Source of the DNA: Chlorobiaceae bacterium
GTDB lineage: Bacteria; Bacteroidota; Ignavibacteria; UBA10030; SZUA-254
Assembly: GCA_013824245.1 (NCBI GenBank)
Contig: PNNN01000044.1
Span: 1-37,463, forward strand
Length of the DNA: 37,463 nt
Reading direction: 5' to 3'
Position numbers and translations under genes: made by a program
Shown here: one piece after another, positions 1-26,371 of the stretch
How positions within the stretch are numbered: position 1 is the first letter of the stretch
How the letters are laid out: each line of letters opens with the position of its first letter
The notes under the pieces: generated by a model
What the model was told of the DNA's origin: nothing
Databases searched by the model: none
What the model saw: only the letters and a program-made list of their open reading frames with translations

Positions 1-3000
1 GTAATACCGACTTCATTGGATACAAATCTTTACACCGGTGAACAAGCGACTAAAATATTGACCATTGAAAATAATGGTGCAAGTGATTTGACATTTGAGA
101 TTTCGGTTCAAGAAGTGGCTGTAGAGTTAAAGGTTATAACTAAGACAGAGATAGCAGGGAAGAGTATAAATTATCAAAACGGTGGTAAGGAAGATCACCA
201 GTGGATTAAGAACGAAAAAATAATTAATCCCTATGGAGATATTAAGAAAGAAAATATATCGGATTATCTTTCAAGTAATACAGAGACCAAATTTAATACT
301 TTGATATCTCGCACAAACACATCGTCTGGAGAGAGATTATTCGGGGCGTTAAGCAGTCAAATTTCCGAAATTGATTTGACTACTGGAGGCGTTATCAGTA
401 GTTTTCCAACACCGGTACCTACATCGGATGGGCCAACTGCTCTGGCGTTTTCAGGTGTGCGTCTCTATTTTACTGATGCATTTAATACATCAAAAATCTT
501 TGTACTGGACCCAAGTATAGGAACTGTTCTGGATTCATTTCCAGCACCATCCATGAGCATAGATGGCTTAGCGTTTGTTAACGGCAAGCTTTATGCAATG
601 GATTACACTGCTTATAAAATCTATGAACTCAATCCTGATGGCGGGATGGTCCTGAGAATTATCTCACCACCTGTCTATATCGGCGGTGGGATTGATGGAG
701 GAGATGGGAGGTTATTTGCAAGTAATTTTTCATCAGGGATTTTCGAATTAAGCTTAGTAGATGGTTCTGTGATAAACTCTTTTATTCCGGTCTCAGATGT
801 CTATGGTTTGGCTTTTACAGGAAGAAAATTGTTTACCAGTGTTCCTGGAATCGGAATTGACGAATACGATCCAAATACAGGGACCTATTTAGGCCGGATG
901 TCATCTCTCGGATTTGCTGCGCTGGCTGGAGGTTCCAGTTGGTTGTTGGTGAATCCGAGTACGGGTACTATTTCATCTGGAAGTAGTATAGATATTACTG
1001 TAGTCTTTGATGCAACGGGTATGAATGGTGGTGATTATAATGCGAATGTATTAATCAAAAACAATGACCCAGATCCAGATCAAGATACAGTAATTGTTCC
1101 TGCTCATTTGCATGTAACCGGTGCGCCAGACATTGCATTATCAGATACATCAATTGATTATGATACAGTATTCATCGGCGTTGTGAAACGTGAGACACTT
1201 AGAGTATCGAACGTCGGGACAGATGTTTTGAATGTTGGTAATATTACATCAGATAATAGTGATTACGGTGTAAGCGCTACGAATTTCAGTTTGAATCCGG
1301 GTGAGCATCAAAATGTAGCAGTTACATTTACACCGAGCGTTGTTGGTGAACGGTTAGGGAAATTAACAATCACAAGTGATGATCCTGATGAGGGAACGTT
1401 GGAAGTGGATTTAGTTGGAGTAGGAATTGAGCCACCGAATATTGTGGTAACACCGACATCGTTAAATTCCGATCTGCTCACGGGAGAAATAGAAACGAAG
1501 ACGCTGACGATAAGTAACACCGCTCAAGCAGGTTCGAGTGACTTGCATTTTAATGTTGCTTTGCAGATGGATGGAACGTTAAGCGCTGATAAATTATTTG
1601 TATCTAAAAAGGATGTAACAGTTCCTTTAGGAACAAGAAGTGGTGAGATACCACCTGGAACAGAATACCATCCGAATCAGGTAATAGTAAAATTTAAGCG
1701 AGGGGTACAAACGGCACAGGCGATGACGATTCGCAGTGAAATTGATGCAACGGTTGAGAAGAAATTTAAAATGATAGGTGCAGAGTTGTGGAATGTATCG
1801 GGTGTTAGTGTTACCGATGTTATTTCACGATATCGAGGAAATCCGCTGATTGAGTATGTCGAACCGAACTATGTAGTTCGAGCGATTGATAAGATACCGA
1901 ATGATCCATATTTCTCATCACTTTGGGGAATGCAAAAAATCCAAGCCCCGGCGGCATGGGATAAAACAACCGGGAACGATGTTCTCATAGGAGTGATCGA
2001 TACAGGTGTTGATCCGGACCATGTTGATTTGGCTGCCAATATTTGGACGAATCCAGGAGAGATAGCTGGAAACGGGATTGATGATGATGGTAATGGATAC
2101 ATAGACGATATACATGGATGGGATTTCTATAACAACGATAATAATCCTTATGATGATAATGGACACGGTACACACGTATCCGGTACGATAGCGGCATCAG
2201 GTAATAATGGAATAGGTGTAGTTGGTGTATGCTGGTCGGCCAAGATTATGGGGTTAAAGTTTTTAAGTTCTGGAGGATCGGGATACACAAGCGGAGCAAT
2301 CAGTGCGTTGGAGTATGCGACGATGATGAATGTTCGTTTGACGAGTAACAGTTGGGGTGGAGGAGGTTATGAGCAGGCGTTGTATGATGCTATACAGGCG
2401 GCAGGTGCGGCAGGGGATTTGTTCATAGCAGCAGCAGGTAATAGTAGTTTAAATAACGATAGTTATCCACATTATCCATCATCCTATGTATTGGACAATG
2501 TCATATCAGTGGCATCAACAACATCAGATGACCAAATGTCGTGGTTTAGCAATTATGGATTAGTGTCTGTGGATTTGGGGGCGCCAGGTTCCGATATTTA
2601 CAGTACGTTGCCGGGTAACAACTATGGTAGTTACAGTGGTACATCGATGGCAACACCGCATGTATCGGGCGTAGCGGGATTAATATTATCATTGAATTCA
2701 AATTTGGGATGGGCAGATGTTAAGGGTATACTCATGTCAACGGTTGATCCGATATCAGCACTGGCAGGTAAATGTGTTACCGGTGGAAGGTTGAATGCAA
2801 ATAATGCGGTGCAGTCAGTACAGACTTGGTTGAGTGTGAATCCGATGAGTGGAACGGTTGCTGCTGGGAATTCAGTAGAATTGCAAGTAACATTTGACGC
2901 GACGGGATTAAACGGAGGGGACTATGTAGGGAATATACTTGTTTTAAATAATGATCCAACACCTGATGAAGACACAATATCGGTTTCAGCTTTGTTGCAT

Positions 3001-6000
3001 GTAACCGGTGCACCTGATATTGCTCTATCAGATACATCAATTGATTTCGGTACTGCTTTCATCAGTATCACACACAGGGATACGCTTACAGTATCGAATG
3101 TTGGAACGGATGTTTTGAATGTTAGTAACATTACATCAGATAATAGTGATTACGGTGTTAGTGTTACCAATTTTAGTCTGAATCCGGGTGAGCATCAGAA
3201 TGTAGCAGTTACATTTACACCGAGCGTTGTTGGTGAACGATTAGGGAAATTAACAATCACAAGTGATGATCCTGATGAGGGAACGTTGGAAGTGAATTTA
3301 ATTGGTGTAGGAGTTGAGCCGCCGAATATTGTGGTAACACCGACATCGTTAGATACAAGTCTTTACACCGGAGAACAAGCAACTAAAATACTGACGATCG
3401 AAAATAATGGTGCGAGCAACCTTACATTTGATGTTTCAGTTAAGGGAGTGAGCGGACTCACTTCGATGAATTACATTCCAAATGAATCGCTCAAATCTAC
3501 AAAAGTTCTTGCGATTGGAAAACCTATCCCGATGGATAAATTAAAAGATATGCCAAAGGTGATGTCTGTTAATTCAAATGATCTGATAGATAAAGGTAAA
3601 TCTTTTCAACATAATCCTTCTACTGCAAACCCATCAGAAAGTATTATGGGTGTAGAAATATTTGGTAGTATGGAAAATATCTATTATGCTGGACCAAGAA
3701 CGAGAGGTAATTTATTTTCATGTATGACTTCAACTAAGTTGATCGAACATCGTTTTTATTTGAATCCCTCAGCGTCAACTCAACTGTGGTTTTTGGTATA
3801 TGAAGGGAATACTCAAGTTGGCACATATAATTTAATAAGTGCTTCAAATGTTACACCAGCCGGACCAGGTGAGGGCTGGTATAGTTCGGGAATGGTTGAG
3901 GTTTCTTTAGAAGCCGGAAAATATTACTTAATTGTTGCCTCTTTTGAACAAGTCAGCAATTATTATAATCAGCAGAATATCATCCCTTATCCAATTTCTA
4001 CCTCTTTTGGTCAGTTAACCGCTGGTGCGGGTTGGGGTTGGGCTCCATCTACAAGCTTTCCACCAGCCAATTCTCAAGATGTTCCTTCGGGTGCATTTAG
4101 TGGACCAGTTGCGTATTATCAAGCAATAGTTACAGGAGTTGGAACATCATGGTTATCGGTCAATCCTACTTCGGGTGTAGTTCCTCCTAGTACATCAATG
4201 AATATAGAAGTTACATTCGATGCAACGGGTATGAATGGTGGTGATTATTATGCAGATATATTAATCAAGAATAATGATCCAGATCCAGATCAAGACACAG
4301 TAATTGTACCGGCACATTTACATGTAACCGGTGCGCCGGATATGGCACTATCAGATACAACATTTGATTATGGTACATTGTTTATAGGTGCATCAAAACA
4401 AGAGACGCTGAGAGTCTCGAATGCTGGGACTGATGTATTGAATGTTAGTAACATTGCATCTAATAATAGCGATTATAATATTAGTGCTACCAATTTCAGT
4501 CTGAATCCGGGTGAGCATCAAAATGTAGTAGTTACATTTACACCGAGTGTAGTAGGAGAACGATTGGGGACATTAACAATTACAAGTGATGATCCAGATG
4601 AGGGAACATTGGAAGTCGATTTAGTTGGAGTAGGAATTGAGCCGCCGAATATTGTTGTTTCACCGGCATCATTAGACACAAGTTTAAACACGGGGCATCA
4701 AACAACAAAAATACTGACGATTGAGAATAATGGTGCGAGCAACCTTTATTTTAATATATCTCTTGCATCAACATCTGGCAGTTTGGCATCTACGCAAATT
4801 AATATATATACACTTCCTCCAATAAAGATAGATGCTTCAAAAAATATTGATCTCGACAAGTCAATAAATAATAATTCAGTCTTCCCCAATCCGGATTTAC
4901 ATACGCGAAACATAACAGCTGAATTAAAAGATCTGACTGGTAAATTTATTGGGATTACGAACCTCTATTATTATTATGTCATCTCTAACGATTTACAAAA
5001 TAGAGGTGCACTTATACGGGAAATTGTATTTCCGATTTCACAAACTACATTGGATAGCATGGATGTTTTATTCATTGATGATGCTATTTATTATGCCACA
5101 CCATCCGATATTAGCAATATCCGTAATTGGGTTCAAGAGGGAAATGCTTTAATTATCCATGGTGATGACTATTCTTCAATGTCGAATATTAATACATTAC
5201 TACCAGGAACAGGTATTCAAGTAACAAGTCTAAATAATTATTATTCTGCAATACTAACAAATATTCTACCACATGAGATAACAAAATATGTTGATACAAT
5301 TAATGCGGATAGTTACGGTTCGTATTGTACTATTATCTCACCAGCTCAAACAATAGTATATGATGACTATGGCAGGACCCATGTTGCTTTTTCGAATCTT
5401 GGGTTAGGTAAAGTGGCTGCTGTTGGAAATGAATTCTGTTCTGATTGGAATCTGACCGTTGGTGACACTCGGTTGTTTGCGAATCAAATGGTGGATTGGT
5501 CAGTGGGTGGATCTGATTTCCTTAGTGTTGTACCCGACTCTGGTACTATATCGCCGGGTAATTTATCGAACGTTTCTATTACCTTTGATGCAACGGGTAT
5601 GAATGGTGGTGATTATTATGCAGATATATTAATCAAGAATAATGATCCCGATCCTGATCAAGACACAGTAATTGTACCGGCACATTTGCATGTAACAGGT
5701 ACACCGGAATTTAGTCTGCTACCAACAAGTCTCTCATATGGTTCTGTCAATTTTGGCACCGGTAAGGTAGACAGTGTTGTTGTTACAAATATCGGTTCAT
5801 CACAATTAGATATTACTTCGGTGGTATCCGATAATGAACAATTTACAGTAACACCAACATCTGCTATTCTTGCACCGTCTGTACCTACGAAATTCTATAT
5901 TACATTCACACCTTCAAACAATGGTACAATAATTGGTAACATTATCTTTTCTCACAATGCACTCGGTACACCGGATACTGTGGTTGTCTCAGGTAATGGT

Positions 6001-7449
6001 ATAGGACCAGTGTTCGTTGTTTCAAAAAATGTAGTAGATTTTGGATCTGTTCTGCTGGGGTATGTTAAAAAAGATAGCGTGAGAGTTAGTAACCTTGGAT
6101 TAACATCGTTATCAATTTCATCAGTAACCTGTAATAATTCTCAAGTAACTATTTTACCGGAGAATTCTGTCATATCACCGTGGTCCTCACGTTGGTTTGT
6201 TATAACGTTCACATCAACGTCAATGGGTGAGTTATCCGGCGCAATTATTTTCACTCATAACGCACCAAGTTCACCGGATACTGCGACTGTGGCTGGTCGG
6301 GCAGTACAAAGCATTCAAATATCAGTCGTGAATCGATGGAATATTGTATCTGTACCTATAAGTGGAACCGATCCAAGGAAGAATATTTTGTTTCCGATGG
6401 CTATATCTCCGGCATATAAGTATAAAGAGAAATATATATCTTCAGATTCAATGTTCCATGGCTCAGGATATTGGCTAAAATTTGATTCATCATATCGAAT
6501 TCAATTCAACGGTTTCATTCTCGCGGATGACACGATTGATGTTGTAAGTGGTTGGAATATGATCGGATCCATCTCAACACCCATTGATGTCTCAAATGTT
6601 ATTCCACACGAAACAAATATCATGTCCCCATTATTTGGATACCATAATGGATATGATATGACCGATTCATTACATCCGGGGTCTGCATATTGGGTGAAAA
6701 TGAGTGATCCGGGTAAATTAGTGCTCACGTCGAGAGAGCAATCATCAATGATGCGATCTGTTTCTTATGCAAAACTGTTTGATGAGTTGGATAGATTACA
6801 ATTTGAAGATTATCTCGGAAACAAACAATCTGTCTTTTTCTCGATGGATGAAAAAAATACAGAACTAAAAAAATTCAGCGATGCGCCGCCACTGCCGCCA
6901 AGTGGCTGTTTCGATGTAAGATATCAATCCCAGCGTATTGCTGAAGTATTTTCAACTAGTGAAAAATATCGTGATTTCACTATTATGATTACTGATGCTA
7001 CATATCCGATGAAGGTTCGATGGAATATTAAACTAGATAAAGGGCATCAATTTATCCTTTACGATGCTCCAAACGGGAAACGTATCCATCATACTCTTTC
7101 AGCAGAAACGGGGGATGTGATCATCTCTGATAAAAGAGTGAACCGGATTGTTCTCCGGATCGCTCAAATACCAACGCAATTCGTAATGTTACAGAATTAT
7201 CCTAATCCCTTCAATCCGATAACAAAGATTGAATACGCTTTACCAACGGATTCAAAAGTGTCAATCAAGATCTTCAACTTACTTGGCCAAGAAGTTAAAA
7301 CTTTGATCGAAGAAGAGCAAGATGCCGGATATAAAATATGTGAATTTGATGCCAGTGAATTCACAAGCGGTGTTTACTTCTATCGGGTTACGGCTCAGAG
7401 TGTGGGAAAGACATACTCGGATGTGAAGAAAATGTTATTATTGAAATAA
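1..7449 (+). CDS. Giant T9SS-secreted mosaic protein with embedded subtilisin protease (5' partial)
   Basis: The frame is open from base 1 and the first codons already match an internal repeat (TSLDTxLYTGEQATKILT), so the gene starts upstream and the first ATG at 16 is not the start. The visible 2,482 codons hold Ig-like ASH/choice-of-anchor-D-type scaffold units interrupted by four payloads: a beta-propeller-like region (109-936), an S8 subtilisin with fervidolysin-like prodomain (about 1660-2770), a beta-rich module (3442-4146) and a Rossmann/GATase-like module (4765-5514). The protease keeps Asp (1999-2001, DTGVD), His (2164-2166, GHGTHVSG), oxyanion Asn (2440-2442) and Ser (2644-2646, GTSMATPHVSG), so it should be active. 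Two diverged ASH domains (5701-6300), a GW..YW module (6313-6735), an FDVRY-type module (6790-7160) and a YPNPFNP sorting domain (7174-7446) follow. The T9SS role is family knowledge; the substrate is unknown. Confidence 0.93.
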   Translation, partial: VIPTSLDTNLYTGEQATKILTIENNGASDLTFEISVQEVAVELKVITKTEIAGKSINYQNGGKEDHQWIKNEKIINPYGDIKKENISDYLSSNTETKFNTLISRTNTSSGERLFGALSSQISEIDLTTGGVISSFPTPVPTSDGPTALAFSGVRLYFTDAFNTSKIFVLDPSIGTVLDSFPAPSMSIDGLAFVNGKLYAMDYTAYKIYELNPDGGMVLRIISPPVYIGGGIDGGDGRLFASNFSSGIFELSLVDGSVINSFIPVSDVYGLAFTGRKLFTSVPGIGIDEYDPNTGTYLGRMSSLGFAALAGGSSWLLVNPSTGTISSGSSIDITVVFDATGMNGGDYNANVLIKNNDPDPDQDTVIVPAHLHVTGAPDIALSDTSIDYDTVFIGVVKRETLRVSNVGTDVLNVGNITSDNSDYGVSATNFSLNPGEHQNVAVTFTPSVVGERLGKLTITSDDPDEGTLEVDLVGVGIEPPNIVVTPTSLNSDLLTGEIETKTLTISNTAQAGSSDLHFNVALQMDGTLSADKLFVSKKDVTVPLGTRSGEIPPGTEYHPNQVIVKFKRGVQTAQAMTIRSEIDATVEKKFKMIGAELWNVSGVSVTDVISRYRGNPLIEYVEPNYVVRAIDKIPNDPYFSSLWGMQKIQAPAAWDKTTGNDVLIGVIDTGVDPDHVDLAANIWTNPGEIAGNGIDDDGNGYIDDIHGWDFYNNDNNPYDDNGHGTHVSGTIAASGNNGIGVVGVCWSAKIMGLKFLSSGGSGYTSGAISALEYATMMNVRLTSNSWGGGGYEQALYDAIQAAGAAGDLFIAAAGNSSLNNDSYPHYPSSYVLDNVISVASTTSDDQMSWFSNYGLVSVDLGAPGSDIYSTLPGNNYGSYSGTSMATPHVSGVAGLILSLNSNLGWADVKGILMSTVDPISALAGKCVTGGRLNANNAVQSVQTWLSVNPMSGTVAAGNSVELQVTFDATGLNGGDYVGNILVLNNDPTPDEDTISVSALLHVTGAPDIALSDTSIDFGTAFISITHRDTLTVSNVGTDVLNVSNITSDNSDYGVSVTNFSLNPGEHQNVAVTFTPSVVGERLGKLTITSDDPDEGTLEVNLIGVGVEPPNIVVTPTSLDTSLYTGEQATKILTIENNGASNLTFDVSVKGVSGLTSMNYIPNESLKSTKVLAIGKPIPMDKLKDMPKVMSVNSNDLIDKGKSFQHNPSTANPSESIMGVEIFGSMENIYYAGPRTRGNLFSCMTSTKLIEHRFYLNPSASTQLWFLVYEGNTQVGTYNLISASNVTPAGPGEGWYSSGMVEVSLEAGKYYLIVASFEQVSNYYNQQNIIPYPISTSFGQLTAGAGWGWAPSTSFPPANSQDVPSGAFSGPVAYYQAIVTGVGTSWLSVNPTSGVVPPSTSMNIEVTFDATGMNGGDYYADILIKNNDPDPDQDTVIVPAHLHVTGAPDMALSDTTFDYGTLFIGASKQETLRVSNAGTDVLNVSNIASNNSDYNISATNFSLNPGEHQNVVVTFTPSVVGERLGTLTITSDDPDEGTLEVDLVGVGIEPPNIVVSPASLDTSLNTGHQTTKILTIENNGASNLYFNISLASTSGSLASTQINIYTLPPIKIDASKNIDLDKSINNNSVFPNPDLHTRNITAELKDLTGKFIGITNLYYYYVISNDLQNRGALIREIVFPISQTTLDSMDVLFIDDAIYYATPSDISNIRNWVQEGNALIIHGDDYSSMSNINTLLPGTGIQVTSLNNYYSAILTNILPHEITKYVDTINADSYGSYCTIISPAQTIVYDDYGRTHVAFSNLGLGKVAAVGNEFCSDWNLTVGDTRLFANQMVDWSVGGSDFLSVVPDSGTISPGNLSNVSITFDATGMNGGDYYADILIKNNDPDPDQDTVIVPAHLHVTGTPEFSLLPTSLSYGSVNFGTGKVDSVVVTNIGSSQLDITSVVSDNEQFTVTPTSAILAPSVPTKFYITFTPSNNGTIIGNIIFSHNALGTPDTVVVSGNGIGPVFVVSKNVVDFGSVLLGYVKKDSVRVSNLGLTSLSISSVTCNNSQVTILPENSVISPWSSRWFVITFTSTSMGELSGAIIFTHNAPSSPDTATVAGRAVQSIQISVVNRWNIVSVPISGTDPRKNILFPMAISPAYKYKEKYISSDSMFHGSGYWLKFDSSYRIQFNGFILADDTIDVVSGWNMIGSISTPIDVSNVIPHETNIMSPLFGYHNGYDMTDSLHPGSAYWVKMSDPGKLVLTSREQSSMMRSVSYAKLFDELDRLQFEDYLGNKQSVFFSMDEKNTELKKFSDAPPLPPSGCFDVRYQSQRIAEVFSTSEKYRDFTIMITDATYPMKVRWNIKLDKGHQFILYDAPNGKRIHHTLSAETGDVIISDKRVNRIVLRIAQIPTQFVMLQNYPNPFNPITKIEYALPTDSKVSIKIFNLLGQEVKTLIEEEQDAGYKICEFDASEFTSGVYFYRVTAQSVGKTYSDVKKMLLLK
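937..1560 (+). repeat. Scaffold unit 1 of the mosaic gene
   Basis: This 208-codon unit runs from SWLLVNPSTG to LHFNVA. It contains DATGMNGGDY, LHVTGAPDIALSD, FSLNPGEHQNVAVTFTP and the start of the next Ig-like domain (PPNIVVTPTSL). Units 2 and 3 have the same layout and nearly the same length. It separates the propeller payload from the protease payload. Confidence 0.85.
2824..3441 (+). repeat. Scaffold unit 2 of the mosaic gene
   Basis: This 206-codon unit runs from TWLSVNPMSG to LTFDVSV. Much of the DNA matches unit 1: the part encoding VTFTPSVVGER and the following ITSDDPDEGTLEV has identical runs of roughly 40 and 50 bases separated by single changes. It lies between the protease payload and the third payload. 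Confidence 0.85.
4147..4764 (+). repeat. Scaffold unit 3 of the mosaic gene
   Basis: This 206-codon unit runs from SWLSVNPTSG to LYFNISL, exactly the length of unit 2. The DNA from 4219 to 4280 is identical to 5587-5648 in unit 4. It lies between the third and fourth payloads. Confidence 0.85.
5515..5700 (+). repeat. Scaffold unit 4 of the mosaic gene (first half only)
   Basis: The unit opens with DFLSVVPDSG, so the Trp seen in the other units is replaced by Phe. It continues through DATGMNGGDYYADILIKNND to LHVTG. The ASH-like domains that follow (5701-6300) are diverged and no longer carry the near-identical repeat, so the cassette array ends here. Confidence 0.8.
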
Positions 7450-7470
7450 TCTGAGAGTGATACTTGGAAC

Positions 7471-7506
7471 AAAAAAAGGGTGAGTATCAATAACTCACCC
7501 TTTTTT
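7471..7506 (+). terminator. Rho-independent terminator of the mosaic gene
   Basis: A perfect 8-bp stem, GGGTGAGT (7478-7485) with ACTCACCC (7493-7500), closes a 7-base loop. It is flanked by seven A and six T, which lengthen the stem and give the U-tract. It lies 21 bases after the stop codon. The rest of the 7507-7826 gap shows no supported gene, only the promoter candidate listed separately. Confidence 0.9.
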
Positions 7507-7625
7507 AATAGTAACATTGCCAAGGATGCGCGTCCTATCTTGATCATTAAAGAATCGTTGATATATTTTGTTTCTGAGCGGTTTGTACAAAGATACCATT
7601 TCGGCTTATTTAACACAAATAATAG

Positions 7626-7654
7626 TTGACTTTTAGGTGGAATTGGTGTACAAT
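7626..7654 (+). promoter_or_regulatory. Sigma70-type promoter for the CARDB protein gene
   Basis: TTGACT (7626-7631) and TACAAT (7649-7654) are separated by exactly 17 bases. The predicted start near 7661 would leave a leader of about 165-210 bases. The same geometry recurs at several other genes in the window, which raises confidence. Confidence 0.55.
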
Positions 7655-7826
7655 ATTCATTAAATATTTTAATCATTGAGGGTTTAATGAAATAAGGGTT
7701 TAATTCCTCGCCGCTTCCGGTGGTGAATTCAATCCTGAATCATCAGATTCATCCTGTTTGTATTGCAATGAATGCTTTGAATATGAATTATCAATAAACA
7801 ATAATTAATTTAATTGCAGGTGTTAT

Positions 7827-10800
7827 ATGAATTTTGTTAAAACAAAAAAAATATTTAGGAGATCTACGCGTATGACAAATTATCATGTAATATTCCGAAA
7901 GATGTGGATGATGAGCACGCTCATCGCCTTCTTTTTCACTGGAACCGTTTTTGCACAACTACCTGACCTGACTATTTCGAACGTGTCAGTTCCGGTATCT
8001 GCCTCGTCTGGTGAATTCATCACCATAAAGTGGACTACCTCGAACATCGGGAGCGGGTCGACCGTCAGCGGATTCTTAATAGATGGAATCTACCTTTCCT
8101 CCGACCAAATCTTCAACCAAACAACGGATACCTATATCGGCGCATACATCCACTCTTCCCCAATCGCAGCCGGAACGAGCGAAGAAGATTCGACGGTAGT
8201 GATAGTGCCCGACAGTTTGGATGGAAACTTCTATATTTTTGTGTATGCCGACGCCTTTTCGCTCGAGACTGAGTCGAACGAAACAAACAATTTTGCTTCC
8301 TCGGCGGTGATCAATATCAGCACGAACGCTCCCGATCTCAATATGCTGCGCGTTGATGCACCTGCGACCGGATCATCGCAGCACTATATTCAGGTCAGTT
8401 ATTCAGTCTCCAACATCGGGACAAAAGACATTACGAACCAGACGTGGTCCGATTATATTGTCCTTTCAACCGACACGGTCTATGATAATGCCGATGATGT
8501 TTTCCTCGGCGGGGTATCGTTGGATACTTCCTTAACAATCGGAGATTCGTATACTCGGACTTCTTCGGTTTATCTACCCTCTAACTTGAGCGGGATATAC
8601 TATATTTTTGTGCGAACGAATGCTTTCGATTTCCTTCGTGAATTGAATGCGAACAACAACCTTGGCATATCGGCTCCAATTAGTATAGATTTCAAGAGGC
8701 CCGATCTTATCGTATCGCTGATTAACAGACCTAACACTGTGAACGCAGGAGACAAGCTCAGATTCTCATATCAGATCACCAACATCGGTGATACGAGCAC
8801 TAACTCTCAGGAATGGGTTGATGAAATTTTCTTATCATCTGATTCTCTAGCGGAGAACGACACACTTCTGACACTCCGCTTCCATTCGACGAATCTCGCT
8901 CCGAGTCAGAGCTTGACGGTAAACGACAGCGTTTATTTGCCGTTCGGATTACTCAAGGGAAACTACCACATCGTGATCGTGTGTGACATACTGAACCAGA
9001 TTAACGAATCGAACGAGACTAACAACACGCGAATCTCGAATCCATTTCTCTATGGCTTCAGCGGTCCCGACCTCATTGTAACGCAGGTACAAACGCCTGC
9101 AAGCGCGTTTTCCGGACAACAAATCCAAATCAATTGGATAGTGAAAAATAACGGCACTCTCGCGACGAATGCGCCACAATGGTACGATCGGGTCTACCTT
9201 TCGCCAAGCCCTGTCTTCGATCCGTTGGGCGTTACGACCCTGGGATTTTTTGATAACATGAGCTACCTCGGTCCCGGAGAAAGCTACTCCAACACACAGA
9301 ATGTTACGCTGCCAAATGGGATTAACGGAAGTTATTATATCTTCGTGCATTCAGATGCATTCGCACAAATAACGGAGGTGGATGAATCAAACAATTTCAT
9401 GAAGAATGATACCGCGATGCAAGTGAATCTTTCGGCTTCGCCGGATCTGATTGTAAGTGCGTTTTCGAAACCGAGTAATGCATTCTCTGGAGATACGATC
9501 GATATTTCCTACACGGTAAAGAATGCCGGAGACGGATCAACAAACTCTGCCCAGTGGTACGACGTTCTTTACTTCACACAGGATACTGTACTCGATATGC
9601 GAACGGCTAAGTGGCTCGGATGGTATCAGCACGACGGCGCTCTTGCACCTGAAAGTTCATATACAAGAATGGACCGCGTTGTTCTTCCGAATGCGATCTC
9701 CGGGAAGTATTTCTTTTATCTCAGCACAGACAATTTTAACAATGTTTATGAGTTTACCACAGAGAGCAACAATACACGCCGCGACTCGATTGATGTTGTT
9801 CTCACACCGCCTCCCGATCTTGTCGTTACAAATGTTTCGGGACCATTAAGTGGGAATTCCGGAAATCGTATTCTGGTCTCGTGGACAGTACAAAACCAAG
9901 GTTCGAATCCGCCATTTGAGTCGGGATGGCAGGATCGCTTTTATATTTCCTCGTCATCAACATTCTATCCTGAATCATCATCCGTTCTCGGAACGTTCAC
10001 TCGCTACGGAATTCTCGAACCTGATTCAAGCTACACTAAGACTGACAGTGTTCTCATTCCTGACGGTTTGTCGGGTCAGTATTACATTTACGCAATAACA
10101 GATTGGAAGAATGAAGTTTTCGAGAATCTCTTCGAGGGCAATAACGTAACACGTTCCGTGACAAGTATTCAAGTACAACTCAGTCCGTGGCCAGATCTTG
10201 ATGTTACTTCGATGACAACTCCATCAACTGCCGCCGCGGGTCAACAAGTAACAATAAACTGGAACGTTACAAACTCAGGGATTGGAACTGTAACATCCCC
10301 ATTATGGAAAGACAAAGTGTACATCTCTTCTTCTGCTGTTTGGGACTCTGCCTCCTCGACTTTATTAAAAGATGTTCCACGTAATTCGCCGCTATTGCCG
10401 TCGGGCAATTATTCACAGAGTGCATCCGTAACTTTGCCGGTAACGATTTCCGGAACATACTACTTCTATATCATCACAGATGCGGGCAACAATGTTTATG
10501 AGCACACAGACGAAGGTAATAATATCGAGAGAAGTTCAGAAGTGTTTGTACAGCCCTATCCGCCAATTGATCTTCGCGCAGGGAATATCGTCATCCCATC
10601 ATCGGGATTCTCTGGGATTTCGGTTTCTGTGCAATTCACCGTTCAGAACATCGGTGCGGGAAAAACACTCGCAACGAAATGGGACGATGCGGTTTATCTC
10701 TCAACGGATACAATTCTCAATCCGGGTGTAGACAGTTTGCTCATAGTTTTTCGTAGAATGGGCGCGCTCGACGTCGGAGAAAGTTACACGCGAGACCTCA

Positions 10801-13800
10801 CCGTTCGTTTACCAGACGGTGTTTCAGGAAATTATTATTGTTTAGTGCGGACTGATACCGGAAACGTTGTTAGTGACAGCGACATCCTGAATAATCTAGG
10901 CTATTCATCGTCGATGATATCCATCGTACTTTCACCACCACCAGATCTCCACATTGCATCCTTCGCCGCGCCGAGTGAGGGTCAATCGGGACAACCAATT
11001 ACAGTACGGTGGACAATCCAAAACAGTGGATCGGGACAAACGCTTGTTTCATCATGGAATGATGCGATCTATATCTCAAGTGATATCTATCTTGATCCTG
11101 CTGATACAAGACTTGCAACGAAATCACATAATGAAGGACTACTCGCCAGTCAATCGTATAGCGACAGTCTCGAAGTGGTTCTTCCGAATTACGCATCTGG
11201 TGATTTGTTCCTTCTGATACAGACCGACAGCAAGAACGAAGTGTTTGAGCAATCGGGTGAAGCCAACAATGTTCTCAGTCGACCTATCACTGTGAATATT
11301 GCGGCACCTTCCGATCTCATCATTTCAAACATCGTAGTTCCAGACAGCGCTATTGCAGGGGATGATGTAACAATCTCTTGGACAATTCGAAACCAAGGAG
11401 CGAATCCCGCCACAGGCTGGATCGATGATGTAGTATATCTCTCATCTGATCAATCGTGGGATGTTACCGATCCGGTTTTTGGAATTTATAGAAGAAACAT
11501 TAACCTCTCACCTGGTGCTTCTATGGAAGCGAGCATGAAAGCCAAGATCAATCGTACGTTCTTCTCAGATTCTGCAGGAAACCTCACCGGTCCGGTGCCG
11601 GGCTTCGCACCCGGAAATTACTACGCAATTGTACGAACAGACATCCGTAACTATATCCATGAGAACAACGAAAATAACAATGCCGGAACATCGACTGGAA
11701 CTACTCGTATTAATGTTCCTACACTTCAACTTGACATCCCAACAATAACGTCACTCACCGAAGGGGAACAAAAGTATTTCCGGGTAAACGTAATTGCCGG
11801 ACAAACTCTTAAGGTTACTCTCGATGGCAGTGCGCCGAGCGGCAGTCTTGAAATGTACGGACGGTTTGGCACGGTGCCAACACGGTCGCAGTTTGATGTT
11901 GCATATACAACAGCATTTTCTCCTGATCAGCAGATAACGATACCAGAAACGAACACTGGCACGTACTATATTCTGATCTTCGCTGATCGTATAGAAGGTT
12001 ATTCGATTGGTGCGACAATTCTTGCTCAGTCATTAACATTCGGTATCAGCTCCTTGTTACCGGCCCGAGGCGGTAATTCAGGCGATGTGACAATTATGGT
12101 TGAAGGCGCCCGTTTCGTAACCGGAAGCACGGTGAAGCTTATCGGTTCAGGTGGCGCACTACCACGGCTCATCAAGAGCACTTTCATCGACGCGTCACGG
12201 ATCGATGCGACGTTCGACTTGACAGACAATCTTCCTCTTGGCGCATATGATGTTGTTGTTCGACGTCCGGATAATTCAGAAGCCACACTTGCCGGCGGAT
12301 TTACATTGGAGCCGGGGAAAAATCTTACTGCAAACTTGGGCTTTGCGCCTCCAAGCGCAATCGCGCGAGGTGGATCTGGATTTTATTCTATCTCAGTTGA
12401 GAACACGACTAACATAGATCTCCCATTCATGACCGTCTACATCATCATCCCTTCAGGGCAGAGTTACAATGTCAACTCAAACAACATGCAAACTCTTAGT
12501 CAACTTCTCCCTGACACACTCGAGAACATTATACATCTTCAGAATCATTTTGATGAAGGACCATGGCGTTTCGTACCGCTAACTGCGAGAAATGTCCGCG
12601 TTGGTCAACGGTTAAACATTGCACTTCAGGTGAGCAATGTTCAGGGAGACGAATTTCCGATCCAGATCGCTGTTGACGCTATTGACCGAAAAGGATTTGT
12701 CGATGGACAACTTCTATATCTCGAATTATTCCGTCAGGCGCTCCTGAGAGACACGAGCGGTAAATTCGCTCCTGAATTCTACAACCTCGCGCAAACTCCG
12801 CAGACATTTATTAATACACTGATGCAAGTTTACGTTGACCTGGGAATTCTCACAGCATTAGATGTTTCACTTGTTACTTCTAAACAGCTTCAGGAAACCG
12901 TAGAAAAAGTCTCTCGTCTTCCGCTCGATCAGAAAAAGCTTGAAGCTGTGTTCAGACCAATGCTCACTTCGTGCGAGAACGAGTTGAATTGGCTTGAGCT
13001 TGGCGGAAGATTAGCCATCATCGCCATTGGATTGGTGACGGGTGCATTACTTGCACCGGTGGCTCTTGGTGTCGGGGCGGTTCTTGCAGTTATAAGCGGG
13101 CTTGGCTTGGGTCTGAATATCGGCGCGATCATCAATGACTCACCCGGACTAATGTCAAGAATATTCTGCGATGATCCCCGGACACCCACTCCCGTTGTCG
13201 CGTCGAAAGATCCAAACGACATTATGGGTCCTGCTGGTTATGGAGAAAAGAAATGGGTAGCCGTCACGCAGACGATGACCTATACGGTGCGATTTGAAAA
13301 TGATCCGAAACTCGCCACAGCACCTGCTCAAACCGTCAGCGTCAACATGGAAGTTGACAGCACGCTGGATGTTCGTTCATTCCGTCTTGGTAACTTTGGA
13401 TTTGGGAGTTTCACATTCAACGGTGCAGAGAACCGGTCGCATTATTCAAAGCGGTTGGATGTTCTTGACTCACTCAGTGTCTACGTTGATGTGAGCGCCG
13501 GAATCGATGTAGATAAGAATAAAGCATTCTGGATATTCAAATCGATCAACCCGGCAACCGGAGAACTTCCATCCAATCCTCTTTCCGGATTTCTTCCCGT
13601 CAACGATTCACTCCATCGGGGTGAGGGATTTTTAACATTCTCTGTCAAACCAAAATCAACTTCACGTACAGGTGACAGCGTACATGCGAAAGCGCGTATT
13701 GTCTTCGATGTCAACGATCCGATCGATACACCTCCCATATTCAATACAATCGATGCCGGCTTGCCGTACAGCAGCGTTCGCTTGCTGCCACCCATCACCA

Positions 13801-14366
13801 AAGATACAACATCCTTCCTTGTGCGATGGGTAGGCACAGACGATTCAACCGGATCTGGGCTAAAAAATTATTCGGTTTTCGTTTCTAAAAATGATAGTCC
13901 ATTCGTTCCGTGGCTATCCAACGTAACGGACACGATGGCAACGTTCACAGGTGAATCGGGAAATCAGTATGGCTTCTTCAGTTTATCGGCAGATAACGCA
14001 GGCAACATCGAGATCGTGAAGGCTTCAGCAGATGCGGTGACGTTGTTGACCGGAATCGATGAACTGCTTCAGATGATTCCATCCGTATTCAAACTTCATC
14101 AGAACTACCCGAATCCCTTCAACCCAGGCACAGGGATTCATTATGAACTCCCAAAGACTTCGCACGTAACGCTTACAGTCTTCAACGTGCTGGGGCAGAA
14201 AGTTGCAACAATTGTTGATGAAGTCCAGGAGATGGGCTACAAGACTGTGGAGTTCAGTGCCTCCCATCTGGCAAGTGGTGTGTACTTCTATCGGATGGAG
14301 GCGGTGAGTATAGCTGATCCGGGCAAAACGTTCACACAGGTAAAGAAGATGGTGCTGATGAAATAA
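7827..14366 (+). CDS. Secreted T9SS protein with ten CARDB repeats, PPC and IPT/TIG domains
   Basis: An N-terminal signal peptide ends near TVFAQ (residue 43). Ten CARDB-type beta-sandwich repeats follow (about 46-1297), each beginning PDL or a variant and ending near an N-E-x-N-N motif. Next come a PPC domain (about 1300-1395), an IPT/TIG domain (about 1403-1498), an unassigned region, a Gly/Ala-rich hydrophobic stretch (about 1725-1770), a region starting SKDPND, a fibronectin-like region, and a T9SS sorting domain with QNYPNPFNP (about 2085-2179). The protein is probably a surface adhesin or scaffold; no catalytic site was seen. The start is uncertain: ATG 7827 has AGGTG four bases upstream, whereas in-frame ATG 7872 has AGGAG at 7857-7861 and gives a more normal 29-residue signal peptide. 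Confidence 0.9.
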   Translation: MNFVKTKKIFRRSTRMTNYHVIFRKMWMMSTLIAFFFTGTVFAQLPDLTISNVSVPVSASSGEFITIKWTTSNIGSGSTVSGFLIDGIYLSSDQIFNQTTDTYIGAYIHSSPIAAGTSEEDSTVVIVPDSLDGNFYIFVYADAFSLETESNETNNFASSAVINISTNAPDLNMLRVDAPATGSSQHYIQVSYSVSNIGTKDITNQTWSDYIVLSTDTVYDNADDVFLGGVSLDTSLTIGDSYTRTSSVYLPSNLSGIYYIFVRTNAFDFLRELNANNNLGISAPISIDFKRPDLIVSLINRPNTVNAGDKLRFSYQITNIGDTSTNSQEWVDEIFLSSDSLAENDTLLTLRFHSTNLAPSQSLTVNDSVYLPFGLLKGNYHIVIVCDILNQINESNETNNTRISNPFLYGFSGPDLIVTQVQTPASAFSGQQIQINWIVKNNGTLATNAPQWYDRVYLSPSPVFDPLGVTTLGFFDNMSYLGPGESYSNTQNVTLPNGINGSYYIFVHSDAFAQITEVDESNNFMKNDTAMQVNLSASPDLIVSAFSKPSNAFSGDTIDISYTVKNAGDGSTNSAQWYDVLYFTQDTVLDMRTAKWLGWYQHDGALAPESSYTRMDRVVLPNAISGKYFFYLSTDNFNNVYEFTTESNNTRRDSIDVVLTPPPDLVVTNVSGPLSGNSGNRILVSWTVQNQGSNPPFESGWQDRFYISSSSTFYPESSSVLGTFTRYGILEPDSSYTKTDSVLIPDGLSGQYYIYAITDWKNEVFENLFEGNNVTRSVTSIQVQLSPWPDLDVTSMTTPSTAAAGQQVTINWNVTNSGIGTVTSPLWKDKVYISSSAVWDSASSTLLKDVPRNSPLLPSGNYSQSASVTLPVTISGTYYFYIITDAGNNVYEHTDEGNNIERSSEVFVQPYPPIDLRAGNIVIPSSGFSGISVSVQFTVQNIGAGKTLATKWDDAVYLSTDTILNPGVDSLLIVFRRMGALDVGESYTRDLTVRLPDGVSGNYYCLVRTDTGNVVSDSDILNNLGYSSSMISIVLSPPPDLHIASFAAPSEGQSGQPITVRWTIQNSGSGQTLVSSWNDAIYISSDIYLDPADTRLATKSHNEGLLASQSYSDSLEVVLPNYASGDLFLLIQTDSKNEVFEQSGEANNVLSRPITVNIAAPSDLIISNIVVPDSAIAGDDVTISWTIRNQGANPATGWIDDVVYLSSDQSWDVTDPVFGIYRRNINLSPGASMEASMKAKINRTFFSDSAGNLTGPVPGFAPGNYYAIVRTDIRNYIHENNENNNAGTSTGTTRINVPTLQLDIPTITSLTEGEQKYFRVNVIAGQTLKVTLDGSAPSGSLEMYGRFGTVPTRSQFDVAYTTAFSPDQQITIPETNTGTYYILIFADRIEGYSIGATILAQSLTFGISSLLPARGGNSGDVTIMVEGARFVTGSTVKLIGSGGALPRLIKSTFIDASRIDATFDLTDNLPLGAYDVVVRRPDNSEATLAGGFTLEPGKNLTANLGFAPPSAIARGGSGFYSISVENTTNIDLPFMTVYIIIPSGQSYNVNSNNMQTLSQLLPDTLENIIHLQNHFDEGPWRFVPLTARNVRVGQRLNIALQVSNVQGDEFPIQIAVDAIDRKGFVDGQLLYLELFRQALLRDTSGKFAPEFYNLAQTPQTFINTLMQVYVDLGILTALDVSLVTSKQLQETVEKVSRLPLDQKKLEAVFRPMLTSCENELNWLELGGRLAIIAIGLVTGALLAPVALGVGAVLAVISGLGLGLNIGAIINDSPGLMSRIFCDDPRTPTPVVASKDPNDIMGPAGYGEKKWVAVTQTMTYTVRFENDPKLATAPAQTVSVNMEVDSTLDVRSFRLGNFGFGSFTFNGAENRSHYSKRLDVLDSLSVYVDVSAGIDVDKNKAFWIFKSINPATGELPSNPLSGFLPVNDSLHRGEGFLTFSVKPKSTSRTGDSVHAKARIVFDVNDPIDTPPIFNTIDAGLPYSSVRLLPPITKDTTSFLVRWVGTDDSTGSGLKNYSVFVSKNDSPFVPWLSNVTDTMATFTGESGNQYGFFSLSADNAGNIEIVKASADAVTLLTGIDELLQMIPSVFKLHQNYPNPFNPGTGIHYELPKTSHVTLTVFNVLGQKVATIVDEVQEMGYKTVEFSASHLASGVYFYRMEAVSIADPGKTFTQVKKMVLMK
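7857..7874 (+). promoter_or_regulatory. Alternative ribosome binding site and start codon
   Basis: AGGAG at 7857-7861 precedes ATG 7872-7874 by ten bases, in frame with the long CARDB gene. Starting here removes a 15-residue basic extension and leaves a standard signal peptide (hydrophobic core STLIAFFFTGT, cleavage after VFA). Other genes here use GGAGG or AGGAG, so this start competes seriously with 7827. Confidence 0.45.
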
Positions 14367-19550: not shown

Positions 19551-19912
19551 AGTATGTTAGTTCTATGAATCTTTTTCCTGAGCATTATTTCAAGCTTTAT
19601 CACCACAATTCCGCATGAAATGTTCTATTGAGATCTCATAGATATTCATCTAATCAGTAACTGTCATCAAAAAAATAAAATCAAAACAACGTGAATCATC
19701 GATCATCGATTGCTCGCACAACTTGAGGGTGTAGTGTGATCTTTCAATTATATATTCATGTTGAATGGCAGGTGTAAAAATATCTAAGTGGATAAAATTT
19801 TTTGTATTAATTTTATTCACATAAAAAAGATTTAAAGAAAATAAAAATAAACATAAAGTAACAAACCACTAATTCACTAATCCACAATTCATTAATCCTT
19901 ATGGAGGATTCT
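19551..19912 (+). other. Long AT-rich leader before the beta-helix gene
   Basis: If the promoter at 19516 is used, this 360-base stretch is an untranslated leader. I see a short direct repeat (ATCATCG, near 19696-19710) and AT-rich stem potential near 19794-19820, but no known riboswitch. It ends in GGAGG (19903-19907), five bases before ATG 19913. Confidence 0.4.
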
Positions 19913-22900
19913 ATGAAACATGTAACATTCTTCGTGGCTCTCGTGTTGCTCACGGTCACTGTAACGTCTTTGGGCTTTGCTGGTAAGGCAAATGTTCAGA
20001 CAACAGTTCCAACGGTATCACAAGCTGCCACACGCTCTGTAACAGATTCCGATCTACCAACAGGACGTGCAATAAAATCATCAAGATCGATCGATCTCTC
20101 GATTCAAGAAACAAGACCGATACCGATCATTGCAACAGCAGCCAGCACTAACCTGACAACAGGATTAGCGGGTACATATACCATACCCGGTGATTTTGCA
20201 AATATCAGCAGTGCAGTTGCGGTGCTTCATTTCCTCGGCGTTTCTGGTGACGTTGTGTTCGAACTTGGCAACGCAAGTTATACAGAAATGGGACCGATCA
20301 CATTCGGCAATTTCCCGGGCGCAGGTTCTTACAATGTTAAGATACAACCGGCGGCTGGCCTTGCCGTAACTGTGAATTTTGTTTCAACACTTACAGAAGG
20401 TAAGGGCTTCGCGTTTAACGGCGCAAAGAACATCACAATCGATGGTCTTAATACCGGCGGCGCAAGCTTAACCTTGCAGTATGCTTCGATCTCGGGATTC
20501 CCGACGAGCGATGCATTCGGTGCTACAGTATACATCACAGGTGCTTCAGAAGTTATCAGCATTCTGAATACTCATGTAAAAGGACAGATCGACAATGCAG
20601 TGTGGGAAAACCAGACAGATGGTCGTCCGGCTATATTCATTTATGCACCTGATACCGATGGCGACTGGAATAAAAATATCACAATCGATGGATGTACAAT
20701 CACAAACGCTACATATGCCATTAAAGCATTACTCGGCGCTGGTGGTAATTTATTCGCCGTTGATGGTTTAACTATCACTAATAACAAAATCGGTGGTGCT
20801 TTTGGTAATCCGGTTGTAATTGGTGGTCTATATGAAGTAACTGCGAACGTTGTGTTTGCAAATAACATTATTGATGATGTTCGATATATGCAAACATATT
20901 GGTATGTTGGACCAACCGAATATGACGAAGATTGGGTTTTCTATGCAGGCGTCGGATTCATGTACAACTTCGGTCAGTCAACTGCTTTCCATTTCTTATT
21001 AGTTGATAACGGTGTTTTTTCTAACAACGTAATCCGCAATATTGGAACTGGCGATTGCGCTTACGGCGATGGTGTTCTTACATACGGAACGCGTGTTTAT
21101 TCATACAACCTTGGGTATGCAAAAACGGCAATAATGTATAACAACCGTTTTTCAGCTCTTACAAATGCAGGTGGTGGCGGACAAATTAATGCCATTCGTG
21201 GTCCTGCAGGTTATCTCTATCATAATTCAATTAGCTTAACTGGTGCGGCACCAGCAGCTACAACCATCAATGGTATCAACGGACATAGCGCTGTATATAA
21301 TAATGCTGTCTCCCTTGATTTGACAGGTGCTACACCCACAACAGTTCGTGCAGTTGTCGCCGGATCAAACATTGATTATAATGCTCTCTATTCAACAGGT
21401 GCAGCCATCTCTGGTACAGCATCGGTTAATGCAGCAGCATTGGCAGGTTACAACAAGAATGGTACATTTGGACCGATCAATTTTGATTCTGATCTCCATA
21501 TCACCACTGGTCCTTCAGCGGCAGAAAATATTGGCCGTGCAAAGACCTTATTACAACCCGATATAGATGGCGATGTCCGCGACACAACAATTGCGGGTAT
21601 ACGCGATGCTGGCGCAGATGAAATGTTGTCAGATCTCGCATTACCATGGACAAACGATGTTATGCCGTTAGGCCTGGCATATCCGGGTTCAAGCACACCA
21701 ACCGGCATCAATGTTTCTCCACAAGTCATCGTGAAAAACAATACACCGGCTTCAGTAGGATCGTTCTCGGTTAACGTGAAGATTGTTGACGTTCTTACAG
21801 CAACAACAGAATTCGATGTTACCGAAGTAGTTACCAGTATGAATCCGATGGAAATAAAAACCATCCCGCTTGCAGGCGTATGGTCAGTTACAGTTGTCGG
21901 TACAAAAGCGATTACTGTTACAACCTCGTTAAGCGGTGATGTACAAATCAGCAACGACGTCGCTTCTGCATCCACAGTAGTTACCGGACCTGAACAAGTA
22001 TATACGAATAAAACATATACATTCGATCTCGGAGCAGAAAACTGGACAGCTACAACAGGTCCATCAGCAACAACTGATTGGAAACGTAAAAACAGTTTTG
22101 CAAAATTAGGCAGTGCATACTCAGGATATTCATGGGTAACTGAACGTCCCAATTTAATTTCAACTTACACCGAAGGTGCATATGCCAATACACAGGGTTA
22201 TACTACAACATATCCTGGCGCCAATCTTCTAACAACACCATGGCTTGATATCAGCGGAATGATCGGAACAGATGTTTATGTTTCGTTCGTACACAGCATT
22301 CGCTTAGAACCAGATTGGGATTGCGCATGGATGCAATACACAGTAGATGGTTTAAACTGGAAGAACCTCGGTACAGTGAACGATCCGAACGGTATCAACT
22401 GGTATAGTGAAGCTATCTACAAACATGCTACACCAAATCCGGATGCATTTGATGATGCAACCGCTATGCAATATGGATTGATCCCTGATGCAGATCATCT
22501 ACCATACAGATGGGCAACCAACAGTCGCGGTCTTCTTGCCGGTGGTGATGATGACGGCGTACCTGCCGGTCCTGATGGATGGGTATATGTACAATTGCAC
22601 ATTACTCCTACAACTTATGCAGAGATAGTACACGCACCTGCCATTAAATTCCGTTACATCGGTTTCTCCGATGCAGCAACGGCAATGGATCCGGGTGGAT
22701 TTGGATTCGACAATTTCTACATTGGTAACAGTGCACCAGTTCTTACAGGTGGTACCATTACAGGTACAATTTTCCGTGATGCAAACGGAAACGGGGTTAA
22801 TGATGCGGAAGTTCCAGAAGCTAATAAAGATGTTAAAGTGTATTACTATGGTGTTTATGTAACAACCATTCAATCGGATGCAACTGGTGTATACACATTC

Positions 22901-25336: not shown

Positions 25337-25346
25337 GCAATATCTT

Positions 25347-25378
25347 TTCTCCCGTCCCGCGAAAGTGGGACGGGAGAA
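25347..25378 (+). terminator. GC-rich hairpin with GAAA tetraloop
   Basis: A 14-bp stem (25347-25360 with 25365-25378, one G-U) is capped by GAAA, 11 bases after the stop of the beta-helix gene. There is no T-run after it, so it may be a REP-like unit or an mRNA stabiliser as well as a terminator. The CCCGTCCCG core is shared with the palindrome at 14521-14580. Confidence 0.65.
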
Positions 25379-25439
25379 CTAATAATAATCAACTTGTTAA
25401 TTCACAATAAATAAATCATAAATACCTTCGGAGGGTATA

Positions 25440-26303: not shown

Positions 26304-26332
26304 AATAACAAACGCTCATCGTTTAAAATCGG

Positions 26333-26371
26333 AATGCGGAAGAACGCTTCAGAGCGCTTCCGCATTTCTTT
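26333..26371 (+). terminator. Terminator after the small secreted protein gene
   Basis: AATGCGGAAG (26333-26342) pairs with CTTCCGCATT (26357-26366). An inner CGCT/AGCG helix closes a TCAG loop, with a two-base bulge. TTTCTTT follows. It lies 30 bases after the stop codon and ends 16 bases before the next start. Confidence 0.8.

Follow-up and report, generated by a model that had tools for sequence, protein, structure and literature searches.

An Ig-like scaffold interrupted four times at one point

Can one and the same loop of an immunoglobulin (Ig)-like domain accept several unrelated whole domains, one after the other, within a single polypeptide chain? This question is raised by the first gene of contig PNNN01000044.1 from the Chlorobiaceae bacterium assembly GCA_013824245.1. 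The window that we analyzed is the whole of this contig (C23 of the 3.23-Mb, 76-contig assembly; 37,463 nucleotides), and the gene is the open reading frame (ORF) at positions 1-7449 of the forward strand, on which all of its features described below are located. Already open at base 1, it encodes 2482 residues, with four inserted domains (payloads) in one stop-free frame. Read with hidden Markov models (HMMs) for the left half (L) and the right half (R) of the split Ig domain and for an intact ASH-like domain (A), the protein takes the form L(280)R-A-L(424)R-A-L(239)R-A-L(254)R-A-A, the inserts being given in residues. The R halves start at residues 314, 943, 1384 and 1840 (nucleotides 940, 2827, 4150 and 5518), and a DNA repeat comparison found a 300-nucleotide scaffold block at position 1006 again at positions 2893, 4216 and 5584, with identities of 75, 82 and 61%, respectively. 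The HMMs and the DNA repeats confirm the claim of a first-pass annotation of this stretch that one Ig-like scaffold is interrupted four times at one point; its payload limits and the spacing of 624, 618 and 618 bases between the payloads proved correct to within a few bases.

We consider it probable that this gene encodes a giant surface or extracellular protein secreted by the type IX secretion system (T9SS), in which an M6 protease head, located on contig C58 of the assembly, is followed by repeated units of a split BACON/HYDIN-type Ig domain and an intact ASH-type Ig domain, and finally by a T9SS tail. Each split Ig domain would be opened at the loop between strands 4 and 5; here, the chain would enter a whole foreign domain, mostly via a variable linker, and would re-enter strand 5 almost without one. 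Since the L and R halves would close into one Ig domain, the Ig units may form a rod from which each payload projects sideways with both of its ends anchored at one point, as in the split domains of RTX adhesins. Homologous recombination between near-identical scaffold stretches might duplicate, move and exchange the payloads.

In the window, the left half of the first split BACON-type Ig (L1, positions 1-108; residues 1-33, profile positions 6-38 of 38) is truncated by the contig start. It is followed by payload 1 (109-936), by R1 (940-1116; residues 314-372) and by A1 (1114-1428; residues 372-476), an intact ASH/HYDIN-like Ig domain of the choice-of-anchor D type according to its family matches. 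The second unit comprises L2 (1432-1560; residues 478-518), payload 2 (1561-2823), R2 (2827-3003; residues 943-1001) and the ASH-like Ig domain A2 (3001-3315; residues 1001-1105), and the third comprises L3 (3319-3441; residues 1107-1143), payload 3 (3442-4146), R3 (4150-4326; residues 1384-1442) and the ASH-like A3 (4324-4638; residues 1442-1546). L4 (4642-4764; residues 1548-1585), payload 4 (4765-5514) and R4 (5518-5694; residues 1840-1898) form the last interrupted copy. The gene runs past position 5700, with two intact ASH-like Ig domains, A4 and A5, at 5695-6297 (residues 1899-2002 and 2003-2099), a stretch in which profile scans found no named family, and a T9SS type A C-terminal sorting domain at 7198-7446 (residues 2400-2467; PF18962 and TIGR04183, both above cut-off, the latter at 7198-7401 with 37.7 bits against a cut-off of 23).

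The start of the gene lies outside the window: C23 opens mid-scaffold. Contig C58 terminates in the same scaffold, and its final 65 nucleotides recur exactly at window position 3229; given this exact repeat and the lack of overlap between the two contig ends, the repeat is most likely where the assembly was interrupted. The ORF on C58 encodes an M6 protease (PF05547) and a fifth split Ig domain with an InhA-like MAM payload (PF20773); C58 very probably carries the 5' part of the window gene, that is, the M6 head and a fifth interrupted copy. The join is supported by the homologous locus L134 (Bacteroidota bacterium isolate C1_metabat.bin.52, whose record is the order-level relative G019), in which an M6-type head, seven payloads and a T9SS-type tail stand on a single contig in a protein of 3936 residues; about 45 nucleotides of the C58-window join are unresolved, which tells against it.

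Position of the inserts in related proteins

Relatives of the window gene were gathered with a contiguous R-A-L query. Matches occurred in 14 of the 15 genomes of the family (E ≤ 1e-10), in 17 of the 98 genomes of the order (E ≤ 1e-20) and in 18 of 395 genomes drawn from the phylum (E ≤ 1e-25); these tallies include the window's own genome and matches to ASH domains only, the split Ig domains themselves being uncounted. A scan of genomes of named species yielded 61 loci. The better matches were taken from the genome searches, and removal of redundant loci left 56 ORFs with L and R, the window's included; loci in the 1.5-kb flanks of places already covered, ORFs inside longer ones and ORFs without both L and R were excluded before counting.

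These 56 ORFs contain 185 L-R pairs, outside of which the fifth split copy on C58 lies. That the interruptions fall at one site is no accident: an insert of at least 40 residues separates the halves in 176 of the 185 pairs, and one of at least 100 residues in 173; the other nine are natural uninterrupted copies with 6-20 residues between the halves. At the other junctions, stretches of at least 40 residues were found in 3/142 (R-A), 0/147 (A-L), 0/11 (R-L) and 2/9 (A-A) cases. The three A-R junctions are long without exception; on visual inspection, a diverged L half is hidden in each. Since the R-A-L query favours intact R-A and A-L junctions, we also ran a query with R alone as a check on bias. 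It found matches in 21 of the 98 genomes of the order and added 12 new loci with 13 L-R pairs, seven of them interrupted (208-285 residues) and six uninterrupted (5-17 residues). In six further R copies from this search, no L was recognised; four of these appear uninterrupted by eye, and the other two are truncated on their left side, in one case following a NIDO-like stretch.

A profile of 100 positions was built from 16 uninterrupted copies, one of which (L227) looks like an ASH domain admitted by a lenient threshold. Among the partial matches to this profile, 120 of the 162 that end early stop at positions 38-43, and 92 of the 153 that start late begin at positions 39-43. In these lineages, intact BACON-type domains are common, and where a domain insert was seen inside one, it sits at this loop. 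The L-R pairs of the final set come in part from 19 of the 61 named-species loci, whose records read Bacteroidota, Ignavibacteriales, Melioribacteraceae, Cyclobacteriaceae, Latescibacterota, Krumholzibacteriia, Neomarinimicrobiota, Eisenbacteria, Calditrichaeota, Cloacimonadota, Delongbacteria, Candidatus Hatepunaea or, for some, just "bacterium". At most eight filled slots were found in one chain (L056, L139 and L151). The suggestion that related genomes would bear the scaffold with other payloads was thereby borne out at the same loop in the order, in the phylum and in other lineages.

Several points weigh against a single site of insertion. In L123, L129 and L132, R and A are separated by whole domains, and in L237 a gap of 169 residues lies between A and L; domains at non-equivalent positions are rare, but they exist. 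The R-A-L query disfavours the finding of inserts at R-A or A-L. The 185 pairs cannot be treated as independent observations, many of the relatives being related among themselves. Inserts within L, R or A would split the profile matches and would not register as inserts; matches that cover less than 60% of the profile are few (2/190 for L, 1/196 for R and 2/167 for A), and internal inserts are thus rare. By eye, the domains between R and the next ASH domain in L123 and L132 look like one repeated small domain.

Diversity of the payloads

Grouping of the 176 inserts by blastp yielded 30 clusters, with 11 singletons. Since sequences of one fold may fall into different blastp clusters, the number of folds could be lower than 30; at least five of the 30 clusters represent recognised, mutually unrelated families. 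Most payloads are about 120 to 420 residues long, and three inserts of 41, 48 and 77 residues may be mere linkers. At least two payload clusters are present in 40 of the 56 ORFs and at least three in 23. The families found above cut-off are S8, DUF4350, DUF6923, Cleaved_Adhesin, InhA-like MAM and Laminin_G_3. Cluster C0 (37 inserts in 19 ORFs) is a GATase1-like domain, C1 (27 inserts in 20 ORFs) is NIDO-like (its representative scored 23.8 bits, just under the cut-off of 25), and C2 (25 inserts in 20 ORFs) is DUF6923/DUF4394. Comparison of the cluster representatives with Pfam assigned C4 to Cleaved_Adhesin/MAM, C13 to subtilisin and C28 to Laminin_G_3; most of the remaining representatives scanned had no Pfam match at E ≤ 0.01. 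One chain (L147:3-8276) carries a small payload of 122-137 residues (cluster C8) five times in five slots and has one empty slot, and on a contig from Delongbacteria (L190:2-10414) three consecutive ORFs contain one split Ig each, with a payload of cluster C12 or C1.

Payload 1 of the window protein consists of an N-terminal linker and DUF6923-like repeats (cluster C2; PF21959 with E 7e-4 and 19.9 bits, below the cut-off of 27). A C2 relative reaches 30.6 bits with PF21959 and 29.6 bits with PF14339 (cut-offs 27 and 29.6), and the payload of L084 is 48% identical to payload 1 over 221 residues. The label beta-propeller, given to payload 1 in the first-pass annotation, is presumptive; the match in the sequence is the weak one to DUF6923 only. 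Payload 2 had been called a subtilisin with a prodomain, which is what we found: PF00082 matches residues 658-915 with 207.9 bits (cut-off 21.8; subtilisin family S8), a fervidolysin-type prodomain (PF22148) lies at residues 552-623, and the catalytic D/H/S motifs DTGVD, GHGTH and GTSMA are all present in the translation. It is 73% identical over 424 residues to a payload of L134; the closest matches among the named loci after this one are the N-terminal head subtilases of L136 and L137 (Latescibacterota, Krumholzibacteriia). Since these close subtilases are N-terminal heads elsewhere in the group, the slot seems to have received a complete pro-protease. Payload 3 is a module without a Pfam match at E ≤ 0.01 or a PDB sequence match at E ≤ 1; it belongs to cluster C7, with relatives in L056, L059, L060 and L091.

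In payload 4 (cluster C0), a linker modelled with low confidence precedes a GATase1/ThuA/DUF4350-like domain, whose match to DUF4350 (E 0.004; 17.9 bits) is under the cut-off of 30.4. In the structural model of this unit described below (model A), VIA-align found Z values of 15.3-20.2 with IFT52, GATase1-like and ThuA-like chains over 185-200 aligned residues, the best cited match being the N-terminal domain of IFT52 (5fmr; Z 20.2, root mean square deviation (rmsd) 2.6, 200 aligned). The domain is accordingly modelled with the GATase1/ThuA/IFT52-N fold, in keeping with its earlier designation as Rossmann-like.

The payload linkers are longer on the N-terminal side: with the median alignment, 35 residues are unaligned there as compared to 4 on the C-terminal side, and the N-terminal stretch is the longer one in 125 of 151 payloads. 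With the most extended alignment, this asymmetry is weak (3 versus 0 residues; 79/151). A long variable linker ahead of many payloads, with little after them, can be seen at window positions 4774-4902 and in relatives, and it depends on the alignment.

Exchange of payloads and mosaic scaffold DNA

At the level of the sequences, exchange in the slot is seen directly in two cases in which like flanks enclose unlike payloads. The C58 ORF is 74% identical to L134 over residues 13-543 (M6 head and L half) and 76% identical over residues 764-915, starting with the first residue of R. The payloads in this first slot are unmatched (best E 2.9), being a MAM domain in C58 and a member of the NIDO-like cluster in L134. 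The seventh slot of L134 holds a MAM domain that is 53% identical to that of C58, in a BACON domain that is just 44% identical. Since slot 1 of L141 (Neomarinimicrobiota) is likewise filled by a MAM domain, 54% identical to that of C58, with an HExxH motif in the head that precedes it, this placement is probably the older state. In the second case, L157 and L151 are 57% identical over positions 1-525 and 65% over positions 745-900 (from R onward), and the payload belongs to cluster C2 in L157 and to C20 in L151. In both swaps, the similar stretch on the left reaches slightly into the linker that follows the L half, and similarity returns with the beginning of R.

The scaffold DNA is mosaic. 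When R3 and R4 were aligned by codons, the identity in windows of 20 codons was 40, 80, 96 and 86%, and then 50 and 38%; R2 and its counterpart on C58 are 41-70% identical in the R half and 88-100% identical in the ASH domain that follows. These abrupt steps indicate recombination or gene conversion between units, by which payloads, too, could be duplicated, moved or replaced. Alternatively, the steps could reflect selection acting on parts of the scaffold.

An alternative is a single old architecture, in which the payloads were inserted long ago and later divergence, duplication of units and loss produced the present chains without any exchange in the slots. In line with it, and against frequent exchange, 15 of the 17 between-protein pairs of BACON domains with at least 70% identity retain their payload cluster; several chains repeat a single payload (C0 six times in L056 and C3 four times in L130), and loss of units together with fusion at the scaffold could imitate a swap. 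Yet two slots whose flanks are 57-76% identical on both sides hold unrelated payloads, the MAM domain, which in C58 and L141 occupies slot 1 next to an M6-type head, is found in slot 7 in L134, and the identity of the scaffold shifts abruptly along the units. We regard this alternative as unlikely. The first-pass annotation had suggested a modular cassette system; the two swaps directly support this idea, while the 15 closely matched slots that keep their payload temper it.

The BACON halves have mean identities of 41-44% within proteins and of 34-36% between proteins, and sharing a payload cluster adds 2.5 points to the latter. The best BACON match was found in the same protein in 33 cases, in another protein with the same payload cluster in 75, and in another protein with a different cluster in 69. 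In a search confined to inverted repeats of at least 30 nucleotides, with no other search for mobile elements, none were present in window positions 1-9000.

Predicted fold of the split domain

The fold of the split domain was assessed with an AlphaFold2 model of A3-L4-payload 4-R4-A4 (model A), calculated from 18 sequences with a predicted local distance difference test (pLDDT) score of 83 and a predicted template-modelling (pTM) score of 0.51. The intact A3 has four strands (residues 7-9, 13-20, 25-33 and 39-46 of the model) followed by five (51-53, 58-60, 65-72, 78-88 and 95-105). L4 (model residues 110-148) has four strands (110-113, 117-122, 126-135 and 141-148) and R4 (model residues 400-458) has five (400-403, 406-409, 414-422, 429-439 and 448-458), so that the two together reproduce the 4+5 pattern of the adjoining intact domain. 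Most of residues 151-193, which lead from L4 to the payload, are of low confidence, and the return into R4 is short. With VIA-align, chains made up of several ASH-type Ig domains can be superposed along the unit: the CEP192 SPD-2 domain 7ptb spans residues 5 to 457 (204 aligned), 2qsv spans residues 108 to 559 (202 aligned) and 7sqc_F0 spans residues 1 to 559 (295 aligned); these lengths are about those expected if L4 and R4 form one domain. In a Foldseek search, chains of the ciliary central apparatus ranked at the top, with low template-modelling scores across the whole model. The predicted structure of this one unit indicates that the L and R halves close into one Ig domain, and for units 1, 2 and 3 the same reading is based on homology.

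Some observations call for restraint here. The VIA-align ranges give the ends only, and the rmsd over the Ig arrays is 5-19. Just one of the four window units was modelled well: the expectation that the scaffold halves around each payload form one Ig domain held for unit 4, and the model of the subtilisin unit, from a six-row alignment, was poor (pLDDT 56). Its protease was recognised in a fold comparison (pro-subtilisin 3whi; Z 22.4, rmsd 3.9, 277 aligned), but the scaffold halves were barely tested by it, and we set this model aside as evidence on the split Ig domain. A first alignment for this unit had been dropped since the ends of N-terminal subtilases fell onto the scaffold.

Assignment of the split domain to known families reflects its division. 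The whole window protein scores 51.3 bits with BACON_2. R2 alone reaches 26.3 bits with BACON_2 (cut-off 25; profile positions 43-77 of 94) and 27.9 bits with HYDIN (cut-off 25.5), and R4 alone 27.6 bits with HYDIN (HYDIN-VesB-CFA65-type) and just 12.8 bits with BACON_2. The cut-off of BACON (PF13004; 25 bits) is reached neither by R2 (12.5 bits) nor by an uninterrupted copy in L137 (11.5 bits). Among six uninterrupted stretches scanned, one passed BACON_2 and three passed HYDIN.

One could picture the protein as beads on a string, with L and R each terminating a short domain of its own and the payloads following in ordinary tandem between these domains; in favour of this view, neither of two L halves searched by itself had a Pfam match at E ≤ 1, while right halves match BACON_2 or HYDIN-like models on their own. 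Such an arrangement is improbable in light of the natural payload-free copies, which run from L to R as a single domain with a loop of 5-20 residues, of the L137 copy, which scores 31.4 bits with BACON_2, above cut-off, over profile positions 2-79 of 94, where R2 alone spans just 43-77, and of the four and five strands of L4 and R4, arranged like those of the neighbouring intact ASH domain. A split Ig domain explains why profile searches detect just its right half. It is very improbable that the array arose as an artefact, by misassembly of different genes into a chimera: the window does start at a repeat break and C58 does end in the 65-nucleotide exact repeat, but the four payloads stand on one open frame without a stop, and L134, from another genome, has a like array on one contig.

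Secretion and putative function

The genome of the Chlorobiaceae bacterium encodes SprA (SprA_N, 188.7 bits), the one T9SS gene searched for, and contains 127 sorting-domain matches, 126 of them above cut-off. Given SprA and the sorting domains, export of the window protein by type IX secretion is likely. With a simple pattern, a PNP-type sorting motif was found near the end of 35 of the 44 ORFs that end within their locus (the window being counted from its profile match). Simple patterns also detected an S8 motif in the heads of 7 of the 56 ORFs and an HExxH motif in 6. Ten heads scanned with profiles comprised one with S8, two with BNR-type repeats, two with fn3-type domains only, one with other Ig-like/unknown models and four without a family.

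The combination of proteases with binding-type payloads suggests a joint role in the capture and digestion of extracellular polymers. If payload 2 matures by removal of its prodomain, the cut in its own chain must fall within the split Ig domain, which would then be predicted to hold the pieces together.

A wider reading, which we advance only tentatively and regard as somewhat more apt to fail than to hold, is that the BACON loop serves as a general plug-in slot in secreted giant proteins of many lineages, that unrelated domains, enzymes included, have been exchanged in it repeatedly via recombination of the scaffold, and that the split Ig domain acts as a non-covalent clasp once a maturing pro-protease has cut the chain. 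Independently of this reading, an Ig domain serves here as a general-purpose socket, receiving several unrelated families in series at one loop, and the payload of a given slot can differ between related genomes. One scaffold with exchangeable payloads, both ends of which are at one point, amounts to a natural engineering platform, and the origin of modular giant surface proteins becomes testable, since exchanges can be dated and breakpoints mapped.

Comparison with known systems

The closest known parallel is provided by RTX adhesins, whose split Ig-like domains project ligand-binding domains (PMC12077191, PMC10865825), and AhLap of Aeromonas hydrophila has two of them with different payloads in one chain (PMC12077191). 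RTX adhesins (AhLap, FrhA and MpIBP) resemble the window protein in that an Ig-like domain within a long Ig chain is interrupted by a whole functional domain, whose two ends are near one point; in model A, a predicted structure of one unit, the Ig-like domain is likewise split by the inserted domain. In FrhA of Vibrio cholerae, the first section of the split domain is a short single strand of 12 residues, whereas four strands precede the split here. RTX adhesins have a type I signal and RTX beta-rolls, in contrast to the T9SS tail; RTX families are absent among the best 25 of 31 Pfam matches listed for the window protein (last E 0.0057), and type I export genes were not searched for. The proteins studied here also differ in their recurrent split unit, with up to eight filled slots in one chain, in having a protease with a prodomain among the payloads, and in payloads that change place between relatives. 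The serial rack of payloads, which the first-pass annotation had judged unusual, is therefore not without precedent, given the split Ig-like domains of RTX adhesins, two of them in AhLap; what is new relative to these is the BACON/ASH-based, mostly T9SS-tailed, serial, partly enzymatic and shuffled variant. Our literature search, with most subscription papers beyond its reach, found no published description of inserted payloads in BACON/ASH proteins.

CrAss-like phages share tandem BACON Ig-like domains, and one of their ORFs has a T9SS sorting domain; the part of the report available to us describes tandem repeats and does not mention inserted payloads (PMC6949934).

InhA metalloproteases combine, like C58, an M6 catalytic domain with an InhA-like MAM domain; here, the MAM domain differs by standing inside a split Ig domain, and a MAM domain of the same cluster occupies slot 7 of L134. 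Proteins with choice-of-anchor D or HYDIN-ASH repeats have the type of the intact A domains, and their models differ in describing one continuous Ig domain of about 100 positions without an inserted payload. The gingipain and haemagglutinin adhesins of Porphyromonas likewise combine a T9SS-exported protease with adhesin modules, and Cleaved_Adhesin (PF07675) is matched by a payload of cluster C4 in L118. The catalytic domain of gingipains is of family C25, and their adhesin modules stand in tandem, not in split Ig domains; C25 is not among the catalytic families listed here, which are M6 (C58) and S8 (window).

Other genes in the window

The next gene (window positions 7827-14366; 2179 residues) encodes another serial, T9SS-tailed protein, with ten CARDB stretches, DUF7619 and a sorting domain. 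Further T9SS-tailed proteins, of 1811, 287 and 1155 residues, are encoded in window positions 19901-29854.

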